From a virus: a stretch of 25,536 nucleotides of DNA. Where the stretch lies: positions 1 through 25,536 of the IMG/VR virus record IMGVR_UViG_3300026519_000060; one strand, written 5' to 3'. The position numbers and the translations under genes were made by a program. This document shows positions 1-13,494 of this stretch, one piece after another. The notes below the pieces were generated by a model. It saw only the letters and a program-made list of their open reading frames with translations, searched no databases and had not been told where the DNA came from. Position 1 is the first letter of the stretch, and every line of letters starts with the position of its first letter.

Positions 1-206
1 CACCCCAGCGTGAAATGGTTGGCGAGTTCATCCCTGTTGAACTCGAACTGCCACCTGATGGAGAGAAGGTCATTGCTTTAACTGAGGCCGAAGATGGGGA
101 GACAAATGTACGGGAAGCTACGCACAGTGAGAACGGCGATTTTGACATTCCTGATGTCGTCGCCTGGGCGTGGATGCCTGAACTTCCTGGGGCTGGGGGT
201 GTATAG
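1..206 (+). CDS. DUF551-like small phage protein, 5' end beyond window
   Basis: The frame is open from the left edge to a TAG at 204-206. An ATG lies at 15, but the codons before it are also open, so the true start is probably outside the window. The visible protein has the pattern of DUF551-type phage proteins: an opening of the form FIPVE.ELPPDGEKVIA, then a variable acidic middle and a closing segment VVAWAWMPELP. The family is common in phage early regions and has no established function. The stop overlaps the GTG start of the methyltransferase gene by one base, so the two are probably co-transcribed. Domain assignment rests on the two end motifs only. Confidence 0.55.
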   Translation, partial: PQREMVGEFIPVELELPPDGEKVIALTEAEDGETNVREATHSENGDFDIPDVVAWAWMPELPGAGGV

Positions 207-1171
207 TGCAAGCCTACTACAACGAGTTTGACCCATTTGCAGCCAAGTGGCTGATGAATCTCGTCAAGGCCAATAAGATCATGTCTGGCATAGTTGACCA
301 TAGAAGCATACTTGACTTAGAGCCTGGTTCCCTAGTCCCTGCCATGCAAATGTTCGGTGTTATACGGGCGCATTTCTTTGCCGGGATAGGCGGATGGGAT
401 TTGGCGCTACAACTTGCTGGGTGGCCTGAAGATGCAGAAGTCTGGACAGGCTCGCCACCATGTCAACCATTTAGCGATATTGGAAAACGAAAGGGAAAAG
501 ACGATGAGCGACACTTGTTGCCGAAATGGCTTGATCTTGTCAGGGAGGCAAAGCCCTATTGCATATTTGGGGAGCAGGTCGAAGCAGCTATCCGGTACGG
601 CTGGCTGGATGATCTATACGATGCAATGGAAGCAGAAGGTTACGCCTGCTGGGCGGTCGTACTACCGGCTTGCAGCGTCGGCGCACCGCACATTAGGCAC
701 AGACTTTTCTTCGCTTGTTTCAGGATGGGTGACATCAGCAGCACGGGACTGGAAAGACACAGCGGGTATGAAGACAAAATCAGGGACGCGCTCAAGAGTG
801 GATCAACTCCCAAGGCAAGTTCACAGCTTGATCGCAGGTTGGCCGACAGTGACAGTCACATCAACCAGGCAGATAGCCGGAGAGGGTGCGGCAAAGCACC
901 ATCCAAAGCGCGGGACGACATTGGAGGGGGCGGTGTCGCTAATGGTCGAGATGGACTGTCCAATTCGATTGTCAGCCAATGGGGCAGTCCTGACTGGCTT
1001 GGATGCAGGGATCAAAAGCTCCGGCCTGTTCAGTCCGGCACATTCCCGGTGGCTGATGGGGTTCCCGGACGAGTGGGACGAATACGCGCCTACGGAAACG
1101 CCATCGTCCCGCAGGTAGCGGCCATCTTTATAAGGCAAACGATGAAGTTCTTGACAAGCGAAGAAGGATGA
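206..1171 (+). CDS. DNA (cytosine-5) methyltransferase
   Basis: This 321-residue protein should transfer a methyl group from S-adenosylmethionine to C5 of cytosine in a specific DNA site. The usual motifs are present in order: motif I FAGIGGW (58-64), motif IV SPPCQPFS with catalytic Cys86 (83-90), the motif VI glutamate Glu123 in GEQV, motif VIII RHRL (164-167) and motif X GNAIVPQVA (297-305). The target-recognition region lies between motifs VIII and X (about 171-285). The GTG start is chosen because the N-terminus YYNEFDPFAAKWL matches the leader typical of phage Dcm-like enzymes and because GTG overlaps the preceding stop. No restriction endonuclease is visible beside it, so a protective or anti-restriction role is more likely than a complete R-M system. 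From about 600 onward a +1-frame ORF overlaps it throughout. Confidence 0.9.
   Translation: MQAYYNEFDPFAAKWLMNLVKANKIMSGIVDHRSILDLEPGSLVPAMQMFGVIRAHFFAGIGGWDLALQLAGWPEDAEVWTGSPPCQPFSDIGKRKGKDDERHLLPKWLDLVREAKPYCIFGEQVEAAIRYGWLDDLYDAMEAEGYACWAVVLPACSVGAPHIRHRLFFACFRMGDISSTGLERHSGYEDKIRDALKSGSTPKASSQLDRRLADSDSHINQADSRRGCGKAPSKARDDIGGGGVANGRDGLSNSIVSQWGSPDWLGCRDQKLRPVQSGTFPVADGVPGRVGRIRAYGNAIVPQVAAIFIRQTMKFLTSEEG
504..1118 (+). CDS. candidate overprinted ORF inside the methyltransferase gene
   Basis: This ORF lies in the +1 frame relative to the methyltransferase and ends in TAG (1116-1118). The frame is open further upstream (a TTG at 414 and an ATG at 432), but the ATG at 504 has a purine-rich AAGGGA seven bases before it. 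The second half does not look random. Segments such as TPAGRSYYRLAASAHRT, GWVTSAARDWKD, IAGWPTVTVTSTRQIAG, PIRLSANGAVLTGLDAG and AHSRWLMGFPDEWDEYAP match the pattern of phage proteins annotated as hypothetical near Dcm-like genes, as I recall them. The first part, opposite motifs I and IV, shows no such resemblance. It could be a translated overlapping gene, an alternative C-terminus reached by frameshift, or a conserved by-product of the methyltransferase sequence. Translation is unproven. Confidence 0.35.
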   Translation: MSDTCCRNGLILSGRQSPIAYLGSRSKQLSGTAGWMIYTMQWKQKVTPAGRSYYRLAASAHRTLGTDFSSLVSGWVTSAARDWKDTAGMKTKSGTRSRVDQLPRQVHSLIAGWPTVTVTSTRQIAGEGAAKHHPKRGTTLEGAVSLMVEMDCPIRLSANGAVLTGLDAGIKSSGLFSPAHSRWLMGFPDEWDEYAPTETPSSRR

Positions 1172-4128: not shown

Positions 4129-7100
4129 TCACTTCTCGTCTTCTGGCACGTTCCTGACAAGGAACTCATATAGTGAGAAGTCTTCTTCGCCTTCAAGCAC
4201 AGCGTAAACGTGTTCACCGCTGATATACATTTGCCTAGCGGGGAGCGAGAACAAATACCCTGACGCCATGAGCACGTTCTTGGTGTCGTTCTGATCCCAC
4301 TCCTGGTCTGGGTCAATCGCAACTCCGATTGAGTCAAGCGACCTGACAATCGTATCTGCTGCGTCGATGACGGGAGTTGCCTTGTATGTATACCCAGACT
4401 GAAGGTGGTTAGCGATGTCTCTTAGTCCAACGAGGGTCATGAATGGGTACGACGCAATCAGCTTTGCGGCCCACCCCAGCCATGTCTCGTCATCGTCGTC
4501 ATCCGGGCCACGGCCAAGGGCCATCTCAGTCAGAACCGCTGGTATGACGACGAGATAAAGAAATGACATGGTTATTTCACTGGTCGCCCTGTACGACAGG
4601 CCTTGCCTTGCTGTTATTTTCAGTCTCCTTCGGATCAGATTGTGAAGCACAGAGAAGAATGAATAGAACATAACGAAGATGCGATTGATCTCCCCGCCAC
4701 GCTGGATCGCTGCCAGGTCTTTCGGCCCGCCCGCTGATTGCGACATTCTGACAACGCTGTCTGCATAAGCGATGGCGTCCTTCTCGCCCATGCCATCTGA
4801 CATTCCCTTTTCATATGCCCCTATCCATGTCGGGATTGTCACGCTCAAATCCATGAATCCAATGTGGCTATACAGAACACGCTGCATATTGTCGTAGTGC
4901 GACGTACCCTTGATGCTCTTTATGGCATCCCTGACTTCCCGGTCGAAGGTCTTTGTTCTGTTACGCATCATGACAGATTTTGCAAAGACTTCTTCAATGG
5001 CACTCTTTGCCCTGACAGGATTGCCGTAAAACTTCTTGATGCCAACCATCGTCCATTTGGCTCCCAAAAGCTCAATAGTGTTGGTGACGCCAAACGGCTG
5101 CACAAGTGCTGTCGTGAACTTGAACCCCATATTGACAGCGGTGACACCACGACGAAGCCTTGAGACGACTTTCTCAACCCACCCGTCCATGGGGCGGTTG
5201 TCTGAGGCGATATTGGCCAACCATGGGCGGATATGCCGATACAGTTCCCTGCTGCTGACAGCGATAATCGTTTCGCGGGTGCGAGGGTCTTGTATCACTC
5301 TGTCGACCATAAGTACCGCTTCTCGATGTGTAAGGTCATGAATGACGTTGGAGATGTGTCTTGCAAACACATCGAGCGACAAGTCAACAGACATCCCACC
5401 TGAACCCTTACGCGCCTCGACGTGTCCGTGGCGCGTCGATGGGCGGAGGAAGTTGCCACCAAACATTTCTTCTACAGACCGCTTTTCCTCATACTTGAAC
5501 GCCTTGGCGTTTCTGTCCTTATCGTACACAAGTGGATAGTACCCGCCTCGCATCGAGCCGAATGGAGTTTCAAATGGCGTAGCTTCTACTTTTTCAGGAG
5601 CAACACCAGTGAGCCGTTCTTGGAGGGCCTTGATTTGCGGCCAGAATGTGTCAATGAAGTCCCACATTTCTTGAACGACACGCCAATCGTTCTCGGTCAT
5701 GTACTTGTCGAGGACTTGTTTTACCTGGACCTCGTTCCATTGCTCGCCTTCAAGCAGTGCTTTCCTGTTCCCTTCGTTGCCCCAGTTAAGAGCGATAGCG
5801 ATAAGCTCTGCCTTTTTGATGGTCCTGCCAAGAGCCTTCTCAGTGTCAAGAACACGTTTGTAAAGCTGCCTCTGCTCGTCTTCTGACCATAGTGAAAATA
5901 TACGTTGTGTCTCCTTCAGAGCGTCAGCTTGCATTTGCAGTTCTGCGTCTTCAGCCTCAGCCAGTGGACGAAATATCGTATTCCACCACAGGCCGTTTGG
6001 TTCATCTCCGTCAAGCTGCTGAGCGAAGAACTCCATTTTGACATGAGACGCAAAGTATTCGCGCTGGAAGGCGTCGAGTTTGTCGAGTGTTGTCAGGTCG
6101 CTGCCGAACTTTTCTTCCTTGACTTTATTATTCTCAAGCGCGGTGGTGACTAGCTGTTCTACAAGGCTGTCAAAGTCTCGTTTTTCATTGGCGACTATGA
6201 TTTTCTTTTCATAGCGCCCAATATACTCGATGTTCCTCAGGGCAGAATACACGCCCACAAGCTCGTCGTAGGTGAGTTCTTTCCATGACCGCTTCGCCGC
6301 CTGCTCTATGATGTCTTCAGGGAAAGCAACTTCCAGGCCCTTCTTTCTCTGTTCCTGAATCCACTCACGAAGGGCTTGGCGTTCTCGGACTGCCTTCATA
6401 GACACAGCCCGTTTGAAGTCATACGCCTCAAGGATGTTGTCGATTTGGTCAAGATTTGGTTTGGCTATGTTCTTCCTTGTCCCAGGTCGATTGTATTTTT
6501 GAATGTACTTGACCTTCTTTTCAGCGTCTTGCTTCATCTTGAGCGCAAGACGATATATCTCCATGTTCAAAAGCTGCTTCTGTTTCGCGTCAGCAGCCTC
6601 ACCGTATTTACCTTTTACGGCTTTGTCGTATGCGATCCTTCCGTACTTGTTTGACTGGACGAGATACTTGTTAGGCGTCAAATCACCAATATGGACAGAA
6701 GACACGATGCGCTTCGCAGCGTTTTTTATCACGTTGCGGGGCGGGACAGCTTTCTTTGCTTTCCGACCAAGAGCACGAAGCTCCATGAACAAAGCGTCAG
6801 CACGGTCGTCGTTCTGTATGCTTTTTAGAGCAAGTTCAGCTATGGCATCTGCACTGTCAGGGTCGCCATATTTCTGCCTCATCGCCTCATCAGCTTTCTC
6901 CTTGGCGATTTTCTTGATGTCGCCTTTAGCCTCTACCATGGCCCTGACCATGGCGCCCCCATCCGAGAAACCAAACATAACGGCTATCTCATCAGGGTGG
7001 ACGCCATCATCCTTGGTCGTCCAGACTGAATACTTGCCGAACGGGAGCCTGCGCCAGAGTGCGTCAGGTCCGTCCCCGTACATATCGACCAGGGCTTGTT

Positions 7101-10100
7101 TTGACAGTTTTACAGGAGTCAATCCTTCAGGCACTTCGCCATTCGGGAGCGTCCCACGCATCAGGAAATGCCTTGCCTGGTAAACAGGTTCGGAGTACAG
7201 GTCAGCTTCTATCTGCTCTGCCAGTTGGTCGCGTTCCTCCTTCCATGCCTTACTTGCTTCCCTTTTGACCCTCTCCATTATTTCCTTACTGGCTTCCTCC
7301 ATTGACCTTGTTTTCGCTGAGAGCAGCTTTTCAATGTACGCTTTTTTCTCTGCATCAGAGAACAACTTTTCCTGTTCTGTGAGCAGTGAAAGGACTGACG
7401 CATCCGTCTCTGCGTTCTCAATGGCGTCGTCGACTGCGAGCATCCTCCCCATGACTGCCCTGACTTCATCAGTGAGGTTTACATCAGAGAAGTAGTTTGA
7501 CATTACGGACTCGTAAACCCTGATCAGCCATGACCTGAATGTGTCAAAGATTTTTTGCAGACCTTTTGACGGAGCTTTCCCTTCCATCAAATACTGCTCA
7601 AATCCTTTTGCAAACTGTTCATGCTGGTCAACGCCAATCTCATCAACAGTTGACACACCAAACCAGTCAAGAAGAATGTCAAGGTCTTTCTTGATTTCTT
7701 CAGACTTGTCCGCAAGTCTGGCATATGTCTGTAGGAAAAAGTGACCAGACTCGTGCAGGAATGAAGACAGGTCCATATTCTCTGTGAACAAGGATATGGC
7801 GACTTCAGACCCTTCAGGGAACTGAATCATTCCTCGGATTTCTCTGCCATTTTGCCGCTTCCTCTGAAACAACGCAAAGCTGTCGTCCTTTATTTCTTTG
7901 GCTACACCATCAGGTATCTTAACAATCCAATAGCTCTCACCATTGTACTCAGTGACAATGCGTTTCGCGTCCTGTTTTATCAACTTCTTTATGATTTTTG
8001 GTATCAGTCTGTCATATTCATTTGTGTAGCTTTCACGGAAACGCTCACCCCATCGAGACACAAGCGCATCAGAGTCAGACCAGGCCAAATACTCCTTGCC
8101 TGACTTTACTGCGTCAATCAGAGCCGTCTTTATGCCAAGCTCAACCCATGCTTCTTTCTTCATGAATGGGGCCATGGGTGAAACCGCTTTGTATGCTTTA
8201 TATTCACGTTGAGCATTTTCTATTGCAGCTACAAGCTCCTTGCTTTCAGGCAGCTTGTTTATCGCCTTTATCAGCCTGGGCATGAACAGATTTATTCTTT
8301 GCCTAGACTCTTTAGGTGGGTCTATGAAGTAGCTATATATGGTTTTGCCTACAATGCTAGACAAGTGTTTGGTCCCACTTTCAGTAATCGGTGCGCTGTC
8401 AACAAGGTCTGTGTAGTATTCTATCGTAGCGTCGTTTTTGCTATCGTAAAGATCAGCAAAACTGTACGCATATACAATATCTCTATACGCATCCTTGTAT
8501 TCATCACCGACAAGAGCCTTATCGGACTCAGACATTTTCACAATCGCCTCAACCATACCATCAACGGCATTGGTAGCGTAAGTCGGTGGTGACGTAACTA
8601 CATTCTGCTCTGGCGTGATGTACCCATATTTACTCCCTTGTTGGTGAAGATCAGACTGCAATTCTTCTATAAACTGGGTGCCCATAGCGTCTTCGTCGTT
8701 AATCATTTCAACCTGAACGCCAATGTCAACATTTTCAGATGCGTACATCAAAACCATCGCTGAGTCTGCACCAACAGCCCACTGAGACTCTATATAGTCA
8801 AGTCTTGACTTGAACTCGATCAGGTTTTCGATGTGTACTGTTATCGTCCCAAGCTCAACATGGTCTGCGTCAGACTCATTGACTATTATCTTCATGGCCT
8901 TTGCGTAGTCGCCACTTTCTACCATGGCCGATACTTTTTCAGCGAAGTCGCTGTCAAATGTATTTCTCAGCCACTTTGTAACAAATCTTGTTTTTTCTTC
9001 AAAGCCATGTTTATCGTTGCCATAGTTCATAAAATCACTTGGAACTTCTTTTGGCAGTTTGCTCTCTATGTACTTTTTTATGACCTTGTATTTATTTTCG
9101 ATGTACCAGATAACATGGTTATTGGACAAGCCTTCATGCCAGATAGATTCCATTTCAGCGATTCTTTTAATCGCTGGTTCTTGGCTGATATAAAACCCTT
9201 CTTCAACGCGCTTTTTTTCCTCGCCATAGGTGTAGCCTCTGGCCTTAAAATCGTCAGGTGGTTGGTGTTTATATTCTATGTCAAGTTGTTTCGTCGTTTC
9301 AGCGTTAATCTCATTGTACTTATCAGCAAGCAAGTTCATTAGCTCGCCAGGGATTTCTTCACCGTCTATTGTGATCAGTGGGTCATACGCCAAATCCCGT
9401 GATGACTCACGACGGAACAGCAAAATGTTCTCATCAGGAAAGTGTGTATCGTATTTGAACGGCGGTCGAAGTGATGGAGCGATGATCTTTGTCTCCCAGT
9501 ACGAGTTGGCATCCGCCCAGCTTTCTCCCATGATATAGTCATTCCATTTGGCTACTTCTGGTGAGTTCGTGCCGTCTGGAAGATCACCGTAATTGTTGGC
9601 TAGCTCAATCGCCCTTATTTCAGCCTCTGGAAAACTATATACATCAAGAAAGTTGTATGACCTCCCATTGTCGACGCTAAGGCTGTACCCTAATTCATCA
9701 TTCCCAACAATAATGTAGTCCGTTACCGGGTCATAATACTCATATACAGGGTCTTCAAGGTATTGTTCCCTCGCATACTTTTCTATGCCAGGTGATAGCT
9801 CGTCTTCAAGTTTTGTTTTCAGTTCGTCAACTGCTTCAGGGTAGCCGTTGTCAGAAATGATACGCACAACAGCATCCATGACAGAGATGTTTCCGTCAGC
9901 AGAGATGTTGTCATCAGCTTTGTCAATAGCTTTGTCAACAGAGTCAGATACATCTTTGGCCTGGCTGTCATCCATGGCCTGTATGTATTCATCAGCAAAC
10001 TCTTTGATATACTCTTTAGTGAACAGGTCATCTGCTGCCTGCATAAGCGGGTACGATGCGTCGCTAATGTCGCTGATACTACTCGCTTGTTCTAACTCAT

Positions 10101-13100
10101 ATAACGCATCATCAATGATATTCTGATATTGGTCTATACCGTCAACAACCTGACCTTCTCCAAACTCCATGGACGGGGCTTCTGCTTCGCTTTCATCCTT
10201 GTCTGCCACGACGACATCAAGCTGGAAACCGTTATTCTGAACAAACTGAAGCACCTCATCCCTTGAGAACTTGCTCCCTTCTTCTGCCGTCAACCACTGC
10301 TCTATACCGAGCCATTTCAGTTCTTCCTTCTTGACACCCTGCATCGAGTTCAGCTTGTTCCATATCTGTTGACCGTTTTCTCTGGAAATGTTCGCGTTGA
10401 TTTTTGCCTTCAGCTTATTAAACTCTTTCAGTCTATCTTCGTCCTTTATACCGCCCATGATGTCTTCTTTACGAAGCTCATCATATTTTGCCTGCTCGTC
10501 ATCTGTCAGGGCCTTTCCCTTTTTCGGCCTCCACCCAGGCAGGTTCATATCTATGACAGCCTGCTCAACAGCAGACCACATACCAAGGTGACGCTTGGCG
10601 GCTTTCCGCTTCTCGCCCTGATAGAACTCGATAATGTCAATATCAGTGTCGTCGAACACGACATAGTTGAACGTAGCTTCTTCGTATGGCTTTTCGCCTT
10701 TAAGAACAGACAGGCGGTAGTCACCAACGACGTATTTATTACCCCTGACGCCAGCTTTTCTCAACTTTAAGCTAACAATTTTTTGCCCACTCTTTCTGTA
10801 GGCGTCCTTTTCACCAACGAATTGTGGATTGTTCAATCCAAGATAAAACTCACTGCCAAGGCTGTTCCAGTCAACACCAGCGACTTCAATGAGTGGCGCT
10901 ATCGCCTCTTTTACCTTGTCGCTCTGTTCAGACAGCGGCCTATCCCACAGAAGAAACTCATCTGGCTCTGGGGCGAGCTCGACTTTATACACAGCCCCTT
11001 TTCTTGCATCAGGGTCTTGCTCAACCAGGGCGGTAAGGTCACGACGCCTTGCCCAGTTCCACGCTGTCGAGTATGGCTGTAGCATAGACATCGTTATGCC
11101 TTCTGAGGCCCTTAACTCATCAAGCGTTCCACGAAGCTCTGCGACAACAGACGACCATAGGGTCGGCCTGCCGTTCCCAGCATTAAGGGCAGAGGCTATC
11201 GCCTGCCTGACTACCTTTGCTGCTTCCGGGAATGTCAACGACAGGTCAGCGGTTATGGCTTCTGCCGGTATCCCGCTAACCAGCATTGGCGAGTTTTCTT
11301 CAAGTACGTCCCCTGTCAACTGCTGCCGGTAGCTTTCAGCGATGGCATCGAGGTCTGTAAAATACAGCCCCCAGCCAAAGGCCATCCCACCTTCACCAGT
11401 GCCAACATAGTCAGTTGACATCCTTGGTATGCCCCGGACACGCGAACCGTGATATGCCTCCTGGTCAAGTATTGCTCCCTCAGCCTGTTTCGCCTTCAGT
11501 TCTTCAAATGTCTTGGCAGACTGGATGCGAAGACCAAGAGCCTCATTGACATAAGCATCGTATGGATCAACACCCAGCTTGTCCCCGAGAACAACAGCAA
11601 ACGCTTCGTGTATGGCGGCGTTTGTGTCGGCAATCTCAGGAGGCATACCAACATTTTCAATCAGTTGTTTCTTTACAAGGTCTTTTACCTTTTTCGCGCT
11701 TTCTCTGATTTGTGCCGACTCCTGAGCCTTCTCCAATATCTGTTGCGCCTGTTCCTTTACTGAGTCAACCTGCTCCTTCTGAGCAGTTACAGCCTCACGG
11801 AAAGTTGACTCGCCGGGGGACAGCCTTACGTCTTGAAGAAGTGGCTCGTAATATGGTGTGTCTGCCAGTTTTACAAACTTTGACAGTGGTATCTTTATAT
11901 CCCCGCCGACCTCAAGCGCATTGTCTAGTTCTTCCTTGGTGACGCCAATATCCTCAAAAACCGTTGAAGGATTTACACCTTCTACCTGTTGGAAGTATGC
12001 TGTAGCTTGTTTGGCGTCAAGGTAAATGTTCGCGTCCTCTGTTCCCTGAAGCGCGGTATCGACAAACTTCTCGAATGTCGCCTTGTGCCTCTTGAACGTG
12101 TTACTTTCAAGAACCTTCTTCTGAAGGTCTTGCAGCTTCTTCACCCTCTGCTCTGCATCTGCTTTAGCTTGGTCATACAAAACTTTATTGGCCGTTATCC
12201 TTGCCGTCGCAGCGCCGCCACCAGAGCCAGCACCACCAAGAAACGCGGGAAGAACCCCCTGGGTGAGACTGGCATCAGGGTTGTATGTAATCGCTTCAGC
12301 AATGTTTTGTATGAACTCTTGCAGTCCTTCCGTAGTCCCTTCAGTAATGAACGCAACGACAGCCCCAAGAAAACTCCGTGCGTTCATTATTTTTTCAAGA
12401 CCGAGTTTTTCCAGCCAGGTATTTATCCCAGCTACAATCAACTGGCCTGTAGCAAACTCAACGTCATCAATCTTTTGTCCGGTTGATTTCTCATATTGAG
12501 CAGCAGTAGTCGCATAGTCCATAGCCTCCAATCCAGCAATGAAAGCAGGAGAGCCGCCTGACGCCCAGGCTGCAACCAATGATGGTATGGCGTTGCCGAT
12601 GAACGCGCCCCATGACTCAGGATCACTAACAACCTGAACCATCGCTGTCGGGTCGCCGTTCTCTATCAACTGCTCAAGGGCCTTGTCGCCCTGGGCGTTG
12701 TATTTTGCTATTTCCCTGAATAGGTCGAAGTTGTTGGTGAGGATTTGCTGAGCGTTGGCGATTTCACCAGCGACGACGTTGGCGTGCTTCCTGATGTTGA
12801 CAGCATCAGGAACGTATAAATCTTCAGTCTTCGGTAGCGCCCAGGTTGGCAGGCCAAGATTCCTTGCCGCTTGAACAAGAGCGTCATATTGCCTCGCCGC
12901 TGCGTCTGGTGCCCTGAACAACATTTCAGACAGGCCAAGAGTCCCCTGGAACGCAGCCCCGGTAAGCGACTTCGCCGTGCCAAATGAGTTATCAAGGATA
13001 ACAGAAGGGTCTTTCTTTGATTGGTTGAAAGCGTCAACCTGATTGAAAATCAGACCTGCCGCCGCCTTGAACTGGTTTTTTACCGAAAACAGATCGGCAA

Positions 13101-13494
13101 TCGACTTGTCAACATCGTCTAGCTGTTTGACATCATCCTGGGACACCTTCGCGTTTTCAGCAGACGAGAACCACGCTTGTAGCGTGGGGCTTTTTTCGAT
13201 GTCACGTTTTATGCTGTTCGATACTACGATGTCCTGCACTTCCGGCAGGTTTCTTTCTACAGTGTCAGTCGGCAGACCAGTCTCTTTTGCAAGGTCGATA
13301 GCCTTGGCAGCGTCGTCAGGATTGACCTGCTTTGCTGCTGTCAGACTCACATTGACACTTATCTTTTTTGACTGCTCTGCGTCTGATATAAGCTGACCGT
13401 ACTCAGACACAAGAGGGTCTTTGTCATCCTTGTTATCATTGGCAGACTGGATGAAATTGCTGTACTCGGAAAAAAGACCGTTATCTTGTGACAT
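4129..13494 (-). CDS. giant polyvalent internal virion protein with ADP-ribosyltransferase and zincin domains
   Basis: At 3121 residues this is over a third of the window, against 1318 for T7 gp16 in the same position. Recognisable parts, by residue: an N-terminal region with AAKAIDLAKETGLP and NLPEVQ as in large phage polyvalent proteins; a hydrophobic, glycine-rich stretch (about 290-430) including FITEGTTEGLQEF; an ADP-ribosyltransferase-like domain (about 680-950) with AYHGS (His682), GWGLYFTD (Tyr711), FLLWDRPLSEQSDKV and NYVVFDD (943-949); an associated segment MQGVKKEELKWLGIEQWL (1051-1068); EELQSDLHQQG (1610-1620); WVELGIK (from 1783); a zincin with HESGH (1914-1918) and a second conserved HEQFAKGFEQYL (from 1958); then RGGYYPLVYD (about 2649) and a C-terminal region with hydrophobic segments (about 2974-2994 and 3008-3025). 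No lytic transglycosylase motif was found. It starts directly after the upstream stop (TAAATG). Likely carried in the virion and injected; that is inference. Confidence 0.8.
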   Translation of the reverse strand: MSQDNGLFSEYSNFIQSANDNKDDKDPLVSEYGQLISDAEQSKKISVNVSLTAAKQVNPDDAAKAIDLAKETGLPTDTVERNLPEVQDIVVSNSIKRDIEKSPTLQAWFSSAENAKVSQDDVKQLDDVDKSIADLFSVKNQFKAAAGLIFNQVDAFNQSKKDPSVILDNSFGTAKSLTGAAFQGTLGLSEMLFRAPDAAARQYDALVQAARNLGLPTWALPKTEDLYVPDAVNIRKHANVVAGEIANAQQILTNNFDLFREIAKYNAQGDKALEQLIENGDPTAMVQVVSDPESWGAFIGNAIPSLVAAWASGGSPAFIAGLEAMDYATTAAQYEKSTGQKIDDVEFATGQLIVAGINTWLEKLGLEKIMNARSFLGAVVAFITEGTTEGLQEFIQNIAEAITYNPDASLTQGVLPAFLGGAGSGGGAATARITANKVLYDQAKADAEQRVKKLQDLQKKVLESNTFKRHKATFEKFVDTALQGTEDANIYLDAKQATAYFQQVEGVNPSTVFEDIGVTKEELDNALEVGGDIKIPLSKFVKLADTPYYEPLLQDVRLSPGESTFREAVTAQKEQVDSVKEQAQQILEKAQESAQIRESAKKVKDLVKKQLIENVGMPPEIADTNAAIHEAFAVVLGDKLGVDPYDAYVNEALGLRIQSAKTFEELKAKQAEGAILDQEAYHGSRVRGIPRMSTDYVGTGEGGMAFGWGLYFTDLDAIAESYRQQLTGDVLEENSPMLVSGIPAEAITADLSLTFPEAAKVVRQAIASALNAGNGRPTLWSSVVAELRGTLDELRASEGITMSMLQPYSTAWNWARRRDLTALVEQDPDARKGAVYKVELAPEPDEFLLWDRPLSEQSDKVKEAIAPLIEVAGVDWNSLGSEFYLGLNNPQFVGEKDAYRKSGQKIVSLKLRKAGVRGNKYVVGDYRLSVLKGEKPYEEATFNYVVFDDTDIDIIEFYQGEKRKAAKRHLGMWSAVEQAVIDMNLPGWRPKKGKALTDDEQAKYDELRKEDIMGGIKDEDRLKEFNKLKAKINANISRENGQQIWNKLNSMQGVKKEELKWLGIEQWLTAEEGSKFSRDEVLQFVQNNGFQLDVVVADKDESEAEAPSMEFGEGQVVDGIDQYQNIIDDALYELEQASSISDISDASYPLMQAADDLFTKEYIKEFADEYIQAMDDSQAKDVSDSVDKAIDKADDNISADGNISVMDAVVRIISDNGYPEAVDELKTKLEDELSPGIEKYAREQYLEDPVYEYYDPVTDYIIVGNDELGYSLSVDNGRSYNFLDVYSFPEAEIRAIELANNYGDLPDGTNSPEVAKWNDYIMGESWADANSYWETKIIAPSLRPPFKYDTHFPDENILLFRRESSRDLAYDPLITIDGEEIPGELMNLLADKYNEINAETTKQLDIEYKHQPPDDFKARGYTYGEEKKRVEEGFYISQEPAIKRIAEMESIWHEGLSNNHVIWYIENKYKVIKKYIESKLPKEVPSDFMNYGNDKHGFEEKTRFVTKWLRNTFDSDFAEKVSAMVESGDYAKAMKIIVNESDADHVELGTITVHIENLIEFKSRLDYIESQWAVGADSAMVLMYASENVDIGVQVEMINDEDAMGTQFIEELQSDLHQQGSKYGYITPEQNVVTSPPTYATNAVDGMVEAIVKMSESDKALVGDEYKDAYRDIVYAYSFADLYDSKNDATIEYYTDLVDSAPITESGTKHLSSIVGKTIYSYFIDPPKESRQRINLFMPRLIKAINKLPESKELVAAIENAQREYKAYKAVSPMAPFMKKEAWVELGIKTALIDAVKSGKEYLAWSDSDALVSRWGERFRESYTNEYDRLIPKIIKKLIKQDAKRIVTEYNGESYWIVKIPDGVAKEIKDDSFALFQRKRQNGREIRGMIQFPEGSEVAISLFTENMDLSSFLHESGHFFLQTYARLADKSEEIKKDLDILLDWFGVSTVDEIGVDQHEQFAKGFEQYLMEGKAPSKGLQKIFDTFRSWLIRVYESVMSNYFSDVNLTDEVRAVMGRMLAVDDAIENAETDASVLSLLTEQEKLFSDAEKKAYIEKLLSAKTRSMEEASKEIMERVKREASKAWKEERDQLAEQIEADLYSEPVYQARHFLMRGTLPNGEVPEGLTPVKLSKQALVDMYGDGPDALWRRLPFGKYSVWTTKDDGVHPDEIAVMFGFSDGGAMVRAMVEAKGDIKKIAKEKADEAMRQKYGDPDSADAIAELALKSIQNDDRADALFMELRALGRKAKKAVPPRNVIKNAAKRIVSSVHIGDLTPNKYLVQSNKYGRIAYDKAVKGKYGEAADAKQKQLLNMEIYRLALKMKQDAEKKVKYIQKYNRPGTRKNIAKPNLDQIDNILEAYDFKRAVSMKAVRERQALREWIQEQRKKGLEVAFPEDIIEQAAKRSWKELTYDELVGVYSALRNIEYIGRYEKKIIVANEKRDFDSLVEQLVTTALENNKVKEEKFGSDLTTLDKLDAFQREYFASHVKMEFFAQQLDGDEPNGLWWNTIFRPLAEAEDAELQMQADALKETQRIFSLWSEDEQRQLYKRVLDTEKALGRTIKKAELIAIALNWGNEGNRKALLEGEQWNEVQVKQVLDKYMTENDWRVVQEMWDFIDTFWPQIKALQERLTGVAPEKVEATPFETPFGSMRGGYYPLVYDKDRNAKAFKYEEKRSVEEMFGGNFLRPSTRHGHVEARKGSGGMSVDLSLDVFARHISNVIHDLTHREAVLMVDRVIQDPRTRETIIAVSSRELYRHIRPWLANIASDNRPMDGWVEKVVSRLRRGVTAVNMGFKFTTALVQPFGVTNTIELLGAKWTMVGIKKFYGNPVRAKSAIEEVFAKSVMMRNRTKTFDREVRDAIKSIKGTSHYDNMQRVLYSHIGFMDLSVTIPTWIGAYEKGMSDGMGEKDAIAYADSVVRMSQSAGGPKDLAAIQRGGEINRIFVMFYSFFSVLHNLIRRRLKITARQGLSYRATSEITMSFLYLVVIPAVLTEMALGRGPDDDDDETWLGWAAKLIASYPFMTLVGLRDIANHLQSGYTYKATPVIDAADTIVRSLDSIGVAIDPDQEWDQNDTKNVLMASGYLFSLPARQMYISGEHVYAVLEGEEDFSLYEFLVRNVPEDEK

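Follow-up and report, generated by a model that had tools for sequence, protein, structure and literature searches.

Cellular and phage genomes alike have, to our knowledge, few long overprints on the same strand for which selection on both frames is strongly supported. The DNA methyltransferase M.EcoHK31I, which has the target YGGCCR, is the closest described system to the locus studied here: Lee, Kam and Shaw are said to have reported in 1995 that its small subunit is translated from a second frame nested within the large gene and that activity needs both subunits. Both M.EcoHK31I and M.AquI are C5 methyltransferases that naturally consist of two chains (PMC3404938). In M.EcoHK31I, the larger subunit carries motifs I–VIII and X, motif IX stands alone in the smaller polypeptide, and the predicted target recognition domain is placed on the large subunit (PMC3404938). 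M.AquI holds motifs I–VIII in one chain and motif IX in another (PMC3404938). In phage methylases, a hidden out-of-frame HNH endonuclease, the ShiLan domain, has been described as a homing insertion (PMC11855218).

The window analysed here, the whole 25.5 kb of a virus record, carries a plus-strand C5 methyltransferase gene (alpha) at the left end, and tail, head and lysis genes of the tailed-phage type on the minus strand. The first-pass annotation had noticed two protein-like frames on one stretch of DNA over the second half of alpha, and all the peptides it quoted do lie in the frames to which it assigned them. Sequence comparison makes it highly probable that the locus encodes a C5 cytosine methyltransferase with two subunits, of the same kind as M.EcoHK31I, and that both subunits (alpha and beta) are read from the same stretch of DNA. 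The features concerned, all on the plus strand, are as follows.

206..1171, +: alpha subunit, C5 cytosine methyltransferase catalytic domain (321 aa, GTG start)
458..475, +: alpha motif IV PCQPFS with the catalytic cysteine (alignments A1 and A4)
491..496, +: Shine-Dalgarno-like AAGGGA, 7 nt before ATG504 (duplex energy -5.3 kcal/mol)
504..1118, +: putative beta subunit, nested gene in the +1 frame, 204 aa from ATG504 (open frame, homology, selection)
555..683, +: beta N-terminal helix and beta hairpin, GSxLYxLTWKxxxTPxGRxxxxLRAS (AF2 block with pLDDT up to 91)
680..712, +: alpha motif VIII region GAPHIRHRLFF (alignments A1 and A4)
723..959, +: beta WPTPxARDWKD repeat region, putative target-recognition domain (hhalign to ShiLan gp70)
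1029..1079, +: beta motif IX FSPAHSRWLMGFPDEWD (pattern in +1 relatives; matches the in-frame actinophage motif IX)
1091..1120, +: alpha motif X YGNAIVPQVA, with the beta stop inside the motif (alignments A1 and A4)

In described motif layout, by which the two are likened, the phage locus resembles M.EcoHK31I: alpha has motifs I–VIII and X without IX, and motif IX is found on the smaller polypeptide. The nesting of the small-subunit gene in another frame of the large gene would be a second likeness, if the M.EcoHK31I overlap is as reported. In contrast to the prediction for M.EcoHK31I, the phage locus has its target-recognition-like region on the +1 protein and not on alpha. With M.AquI it shares the distribution of catalytic motifs I–VIII and motif IX over separate chains; the second chain of M.AquI, however, also holds motif X in a simple split, whereas phage alpha keeps motif X and the overprint is long. 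The ShiLan-domain HNH gene is likewise an out-of-frame gene within a phage DNA methylase gene, but the overlap described here, unlike that insertion, spans the methylase's own conserved sequence and would complete the enzyme.

The alpha gene encodes a catalytic domain without motif IX

The alpha product matched the Pfam C5 DNA methylase family (PF00145, E=1e-20) and PHROG 363 (E=2e-68), and it contains motifs I–VIII and X without IX. The hallmarks of a C5 catalytic domain are present, namely PCQ in motif IV, the ENV/EQV motif VI and motif VIII, and the PCQPFS, GEQ and R.R columns were invariant in the alpha alignments. Motif X lies near the C-terminus, with G297, N298 and A299 invariant. The motif IX and target recognition region that a single-chain enzyme carries between motifs VIII and X on the same chain are absent from alpha.

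Structure prediction gave a corresponding picture: AF2 folded alpha well outside residues 205–257 and 279–297, with pLDDT mostly above 85 over residues 1–150 and below 50 in those two segments, and the low-pLDDT part is the place of the small domain in a single-chain enzyme. Foldseek matched alpha to M.HhaI. Elsewhere in the window, a 3121-aa ORF on the minus strand (4129–13494) matched PHROG 9880, of unknown function, over its C-terminal 40%, and the ORF finder also listed an opposite-strand ORF at 821–1138.

The +1 frame is open far beyond chance expectation

In the window, the +1 frame is without stops from position 390 and ends at TAG 1118. The fairest sets for asking how often such a frame stays open were relatives selected through alpha peptides alone, with stops counted in the codons between motifs IV and X. 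The null consisted of synonymous codon shuffles that keep composition and the alpha protein, with the alpha codon pool fixed per gene and the loci treated as independent although they are related. Under this null, 3.0 of the 72 viral contigs and 5.0 of the 78 bacterial loci would be expected to keep the +1 frame fully open; the observed numbers were 70 and 76. The bacterial set held 4 +1 stops against 206.9 expected. The +2 control frame was open in none, with stops slightly above expectation. Within the 207 codons that lie between motifs IV and X in the window itself, there were no +1 stops against 4.4 expected, none of 100 shuffles was open, and the +2 frame had 12 stops against 14.7 expected. 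For loci outside the profile, the +1 profile score averaged 196, compared with 46 for their synonymous shuffles.

These counts bear on the reading that there is no second gene at all, the +1 frame being open through base composition and codon use and owing its likeness among phages to the conservation of alpha. A G+C content of about 0.56–0.60 does give fewer +1 stops than AT-rich DNA would, but the composition-preserving shuffles, which also keep the alpha protein, still carried 204.5 stops in the viral set where 2 were seen, and at one alpha leucine column a +1 stop occurred in 0 of 116 sequences with 50 expected. Between motifs VIII and X, moreover, the fastest-changing alpha position is position 1, at which +1 has its wobble, a pattern that alpha coding alone cannot yield. 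We give this reading practically no credence. A chance open frame or composition effect was ruled out by the synonymous shuffles together with the +2 control.

Codon-position rates indicate selection on both frames

Substitution rates were taken from pairs of relatives at 72–80% identity; as one sequence can enter several pairs, the counts are not independent. At alpha codon positions 1/2/3, the rates were.14/.11/.48 before the overlap,.22/.12/.29 over motifs IV–VIII,.36/.19/.21 between motif VIII and the conserved C-terminal block,.24/.12/.23 within that block and.21/.18/.53 past the +1 stop. The fast codon position thus switches to the +1 wobble position between motifs VIII and X and reverts past the +1 stop, and the shift toward position 1 between VIII and X was seen in all three identity bands. 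Since alpha position 1 is the wobble position of the +1 frame, conservation between motifs VIII and X is stronger in +1 than in alpha. A finer profile placed the onset of constraint near window position 452 and its end near 1081; third-position change was normal upstream of motif IV, and the third-position rate was back to 0.50 after alpha motif X.

The first-pass annotation had proposed a search for suppressed synonymous change, and the fall of the alpha position 3 rate from.48 to.21 between VIII and X is such a signal. Both stops and synonymous change are suppressed in the overlap, with the control frame normal. Taken across phages and prophages, the aligned relatives show both frames to be under purifying selection. 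Of the interpretations first put forward for the overlap, a true overprinted gene agrees with the suppressed stops and the dual-coding substitution rates in relatives. A family existing only as a misread frame does not, because stops are far below chance and synonymous variation is not normal; the codon-position rates ruled it out.

The +1 product carries the motif IX that alpha lacks

Of 176 relatives, none had a motif IX pattern between motifs VIII and X of the alpha chain, and 159 had it in the +1 chain; these counts leave out some loci that could not be parsed for motifs. Several exceptions that we inspected proved to be variants, such as WLMALP and WLMGYR.

By profile alignment with hhalign, the +1 family matched the VIII-to-X segment of ShiLan gp70 at E=4e-8 and a probability of 95; its match to Baddon gp4 covered motif IX. 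ShiLan gp70 is a single-frame actinophage methyltransferase in which the +1-type region, with homologous PTP-repeat region and motif IX, lies in frame between VIII and X. The likeness to beta thus covers both parts in ShiLan gp70 and motif IX in Baddon gp4, but unlike the overprinted loci, ShiLan and Baddon have motif IX in the alpha (catalytic) frame and their +1 frame is broken. On the alpha side, the repeat region (723..959) corresponds to a variable, low-confidence linker in which alpha position 1 is the fastest-changing. From these matches we infer that target recognition and motif IX belong to beta, as the small domain. Upstream of the in-frame motif IX in ShiLan (L152:1312-2481) and Baddon (L153:1321-2391), parts of the +1 frame also read PTP-type repeats (LLPTPV..., MPTPQASDWK...), hinting that a change of frame may have turned the overprinted layout into the actinophage enzymes, or the reverse.

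Other searches with the +1 product gave less. It matched PHROG 31772 (E=1e-28) and PHROG 1008 (3e-17 from ATG504, 1e-19 from 414), both labelled DNA methyltransferase. Pfam returned no match, a defence-system search no convincing match and a solved-structure search no significant match, and direct profile comparison of the +1 and alpha frames detected no similarity. AF2 modelled beta alone with low overall confidence (mean pLDDT 61, pTM 0.29); confidence was high for a helix and hairpin (residues 18–60), and the model has a C-terminal helix at motif IX. The helix-hairpin sequence GSxLYxLTWKxxxTPxGRxxxxLRAS is conserved in alignments A2 and A3 and shares its DNA with alpha motifs VI–VIII. No fold was assigned to the +1 model because its significant structure hits, to phage methyltransferases and uncharacterised phage proteins, had very low TM-scores.

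The lack of a convincing Pfam or defence-system match and the low-confidence beta model could also suit a real overprinted gene with a role unrelated to alpha catalysis, such as a methyltransferase regulator or an anti-defence protein. Yet motif IX occurs in the +1 frame exactly where alpha is without it, and the +1 product is homologous to an in-frame part of a single-chain methyltransferase. Nor was there a clear stand-alone +1 copy among 43 loci found with the +1 peptide, where only one locus, cut by a contig end (L038), was without an alpha match. An unrelated role is therefore unlikely, and a small subunit of the methyltransferase remains our reading of beta.

Internal starts favour independent initiation over frameshifting

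Within the window, ATG504 is the best candidate for the beta start. It is favoured because the nearest relative, L001, keeps an aligned ATG with a stronger Shine-Dalgarno sequence (AAAAAGGGGAG, duplex energy -7.8 kcal/mol), in agreement with the early suggestion of a start at this ATG with AAGGGA seven bases upstream. Alternative starts are TTG414 and ATG432, of which ATG432, common to the window and L001, also stands as a candidate.

Among relatives, a different site is the commonest. In many of them the alpha codons for DERSIEDV read GAAAGGAGTATTGAAGATG, which provides an AGGAG Shine-Dalgarno sequence and a +1 ATG. This pair was strongly enriched at the one alpha site: 41 of 103 loci had it where 4.7 would be expected. 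A Shine-Dalgarno sequence without the ATG was depleted there (2 against 11.0 expected in the same 103 loci); in a larger set, the pair was present in 71 of 175 loci and the Shine-Dalgarno without ATG in 3. Third positions at the common start were conserved only between loci holding both elements. Where the common start is absent, another good start occurred in 32 loci against 12.5 expected, an expectation lowered by the fact that the shuffles also break the open frame; loci with the common start showed no such excess. The window is without the commonest start, and no start site is common to the whole family.

The first-pass annotation had also considered a programmed frameshift, in which a slip from alpha into +1 upstream of motif VIII would yield a fused chain with an alternative target-recognition C-terminal tail. 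Its guess about content looks right, in that a target-recognition-like region and motif IX are in beta and absent from alpha, but beta is better read as a separate subunit than as a tail. The absence of a strong internal start at the commonest site in more than half of the loci would also suit a slip, but the other good starts found in such loci speak against it. So do the normal third-position change upstream of motif IV, the +1 constraint, which begins near motif IV and covers motif VI–VIII codons that would go untranslated in +1 after a late shift, and the loss of motif X from the fused chain. Because so many relatives hold the internal Shine-Dalgarno and ATG, and because of the +1 constraint on motif VI–VIII codons, we consider a frameshift unlikely; independent initiation fits the +1 gene better.

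Proposed working of the two-subunit enzyme

In the two-subunit enzyme that we propose, alpha would supply cofactor binding, catalysis and motif X. Beta, translated through internal initiation on the alpha message, would bind alpha as the absent small domain and contribute target recognition and motif IX. The pair would then methylate a specific cytosine and so presumably protect the DNA of the phage against restriction by its host, and variable beta repeats together with cassette exchange among close relatives could change the target specificity. Between the window (206–1171) and L001, the ends of alpha are almost identical and the middle, which carries beta, is strongly diverged; this looks like the exchange of a specificity cassette.

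We hold it somewhat probable that the overprinted second gene is a whole small domain, internally started, exchanged as a cassette and kept in a very large family, with target recognition on beta, contrary to the prediction for M.EcoHK31I. A single piece of DNA would then serve as linker and motif X for the catalytic subunit and as specificity domain for its partner. The kind of enzyme is known; the breadth, the selection evidence and target recognition on beta look new. A limited search of the open-access literature returned no paper on a phage-wide overlap or on Mte8, and only the ShiLan HNH paper was relevant. Annotations usually omit the second half of the enzyme or choose the other frame, and functional tests that use only alpha would be likely to fail or to give misleading results. 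The family is also a well-sampled natural data set for overlapping-gene constraint on a specificity domain.

Distribution and annotation of the overprint

The first-pass annotation had recognised the +1 pattern as recurrent in phages. Besides the matches to PHROG 31772 and PHROG 1008, tblastn with the +1 peptide found 215 phage records, most matches lying under genes annotated as methyltransferase. Both frames are annotated in phage K1G and Xanthomonas PhiXhv-28, and the +1 frame alone in Pseudomonas phage PMG1. When each frame was located by its own profile, the +1 match lay exactly one base ahead of alpha at 150 of 151 phage or viral loci, and the relation was exactly +1 at 80 of 80 bacterial loci. 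In the sole viral or phage exception, L013, one indel moves both frames together; a natural fusion of the frames there was rejected, as a three-frame reading showed a single indel shifting both genes. A scan of genome contigs with the single window protein gave no confirmed relatives. The overprint recurs in phages of many hosts, in proteobacterial prophages and, in metagenome assemblies, in other phyla; the family of phages and prophages that keep it is very large and mostly unannotated.

Individual loci illustrate how the second frame is treated. In a prophage of E. coli ECCTRSRTH03 (L235:2483-3652), an intact alpha appears in RefSeq as two incomplete pseudogenes, a call apparently stemming from a middle segment that matches no protein model, and the +1 frame is intact and unannotated. 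In Edwardsiella phage eiAU (L054:1316-2740), the +1 frame runs stop-free into the downstream methyltransferase gene gp15, possibly giving a 474-aa beta-methyltransferase fusion. Phage eiDWF, related to eiAU, is annotated with one larger methyltransferase ORF (PMC3025963).

In a distant methyltransferase subfamily (L031–L045), a long +1 frame is likewise kept and contains the RDWKDTAGM block and LNPNWVEHLMGLPAGW; for this reason the overprint is probably older than the split of that subfamily. In some of these loci, the +1 frame is open across the entire alpha gene.
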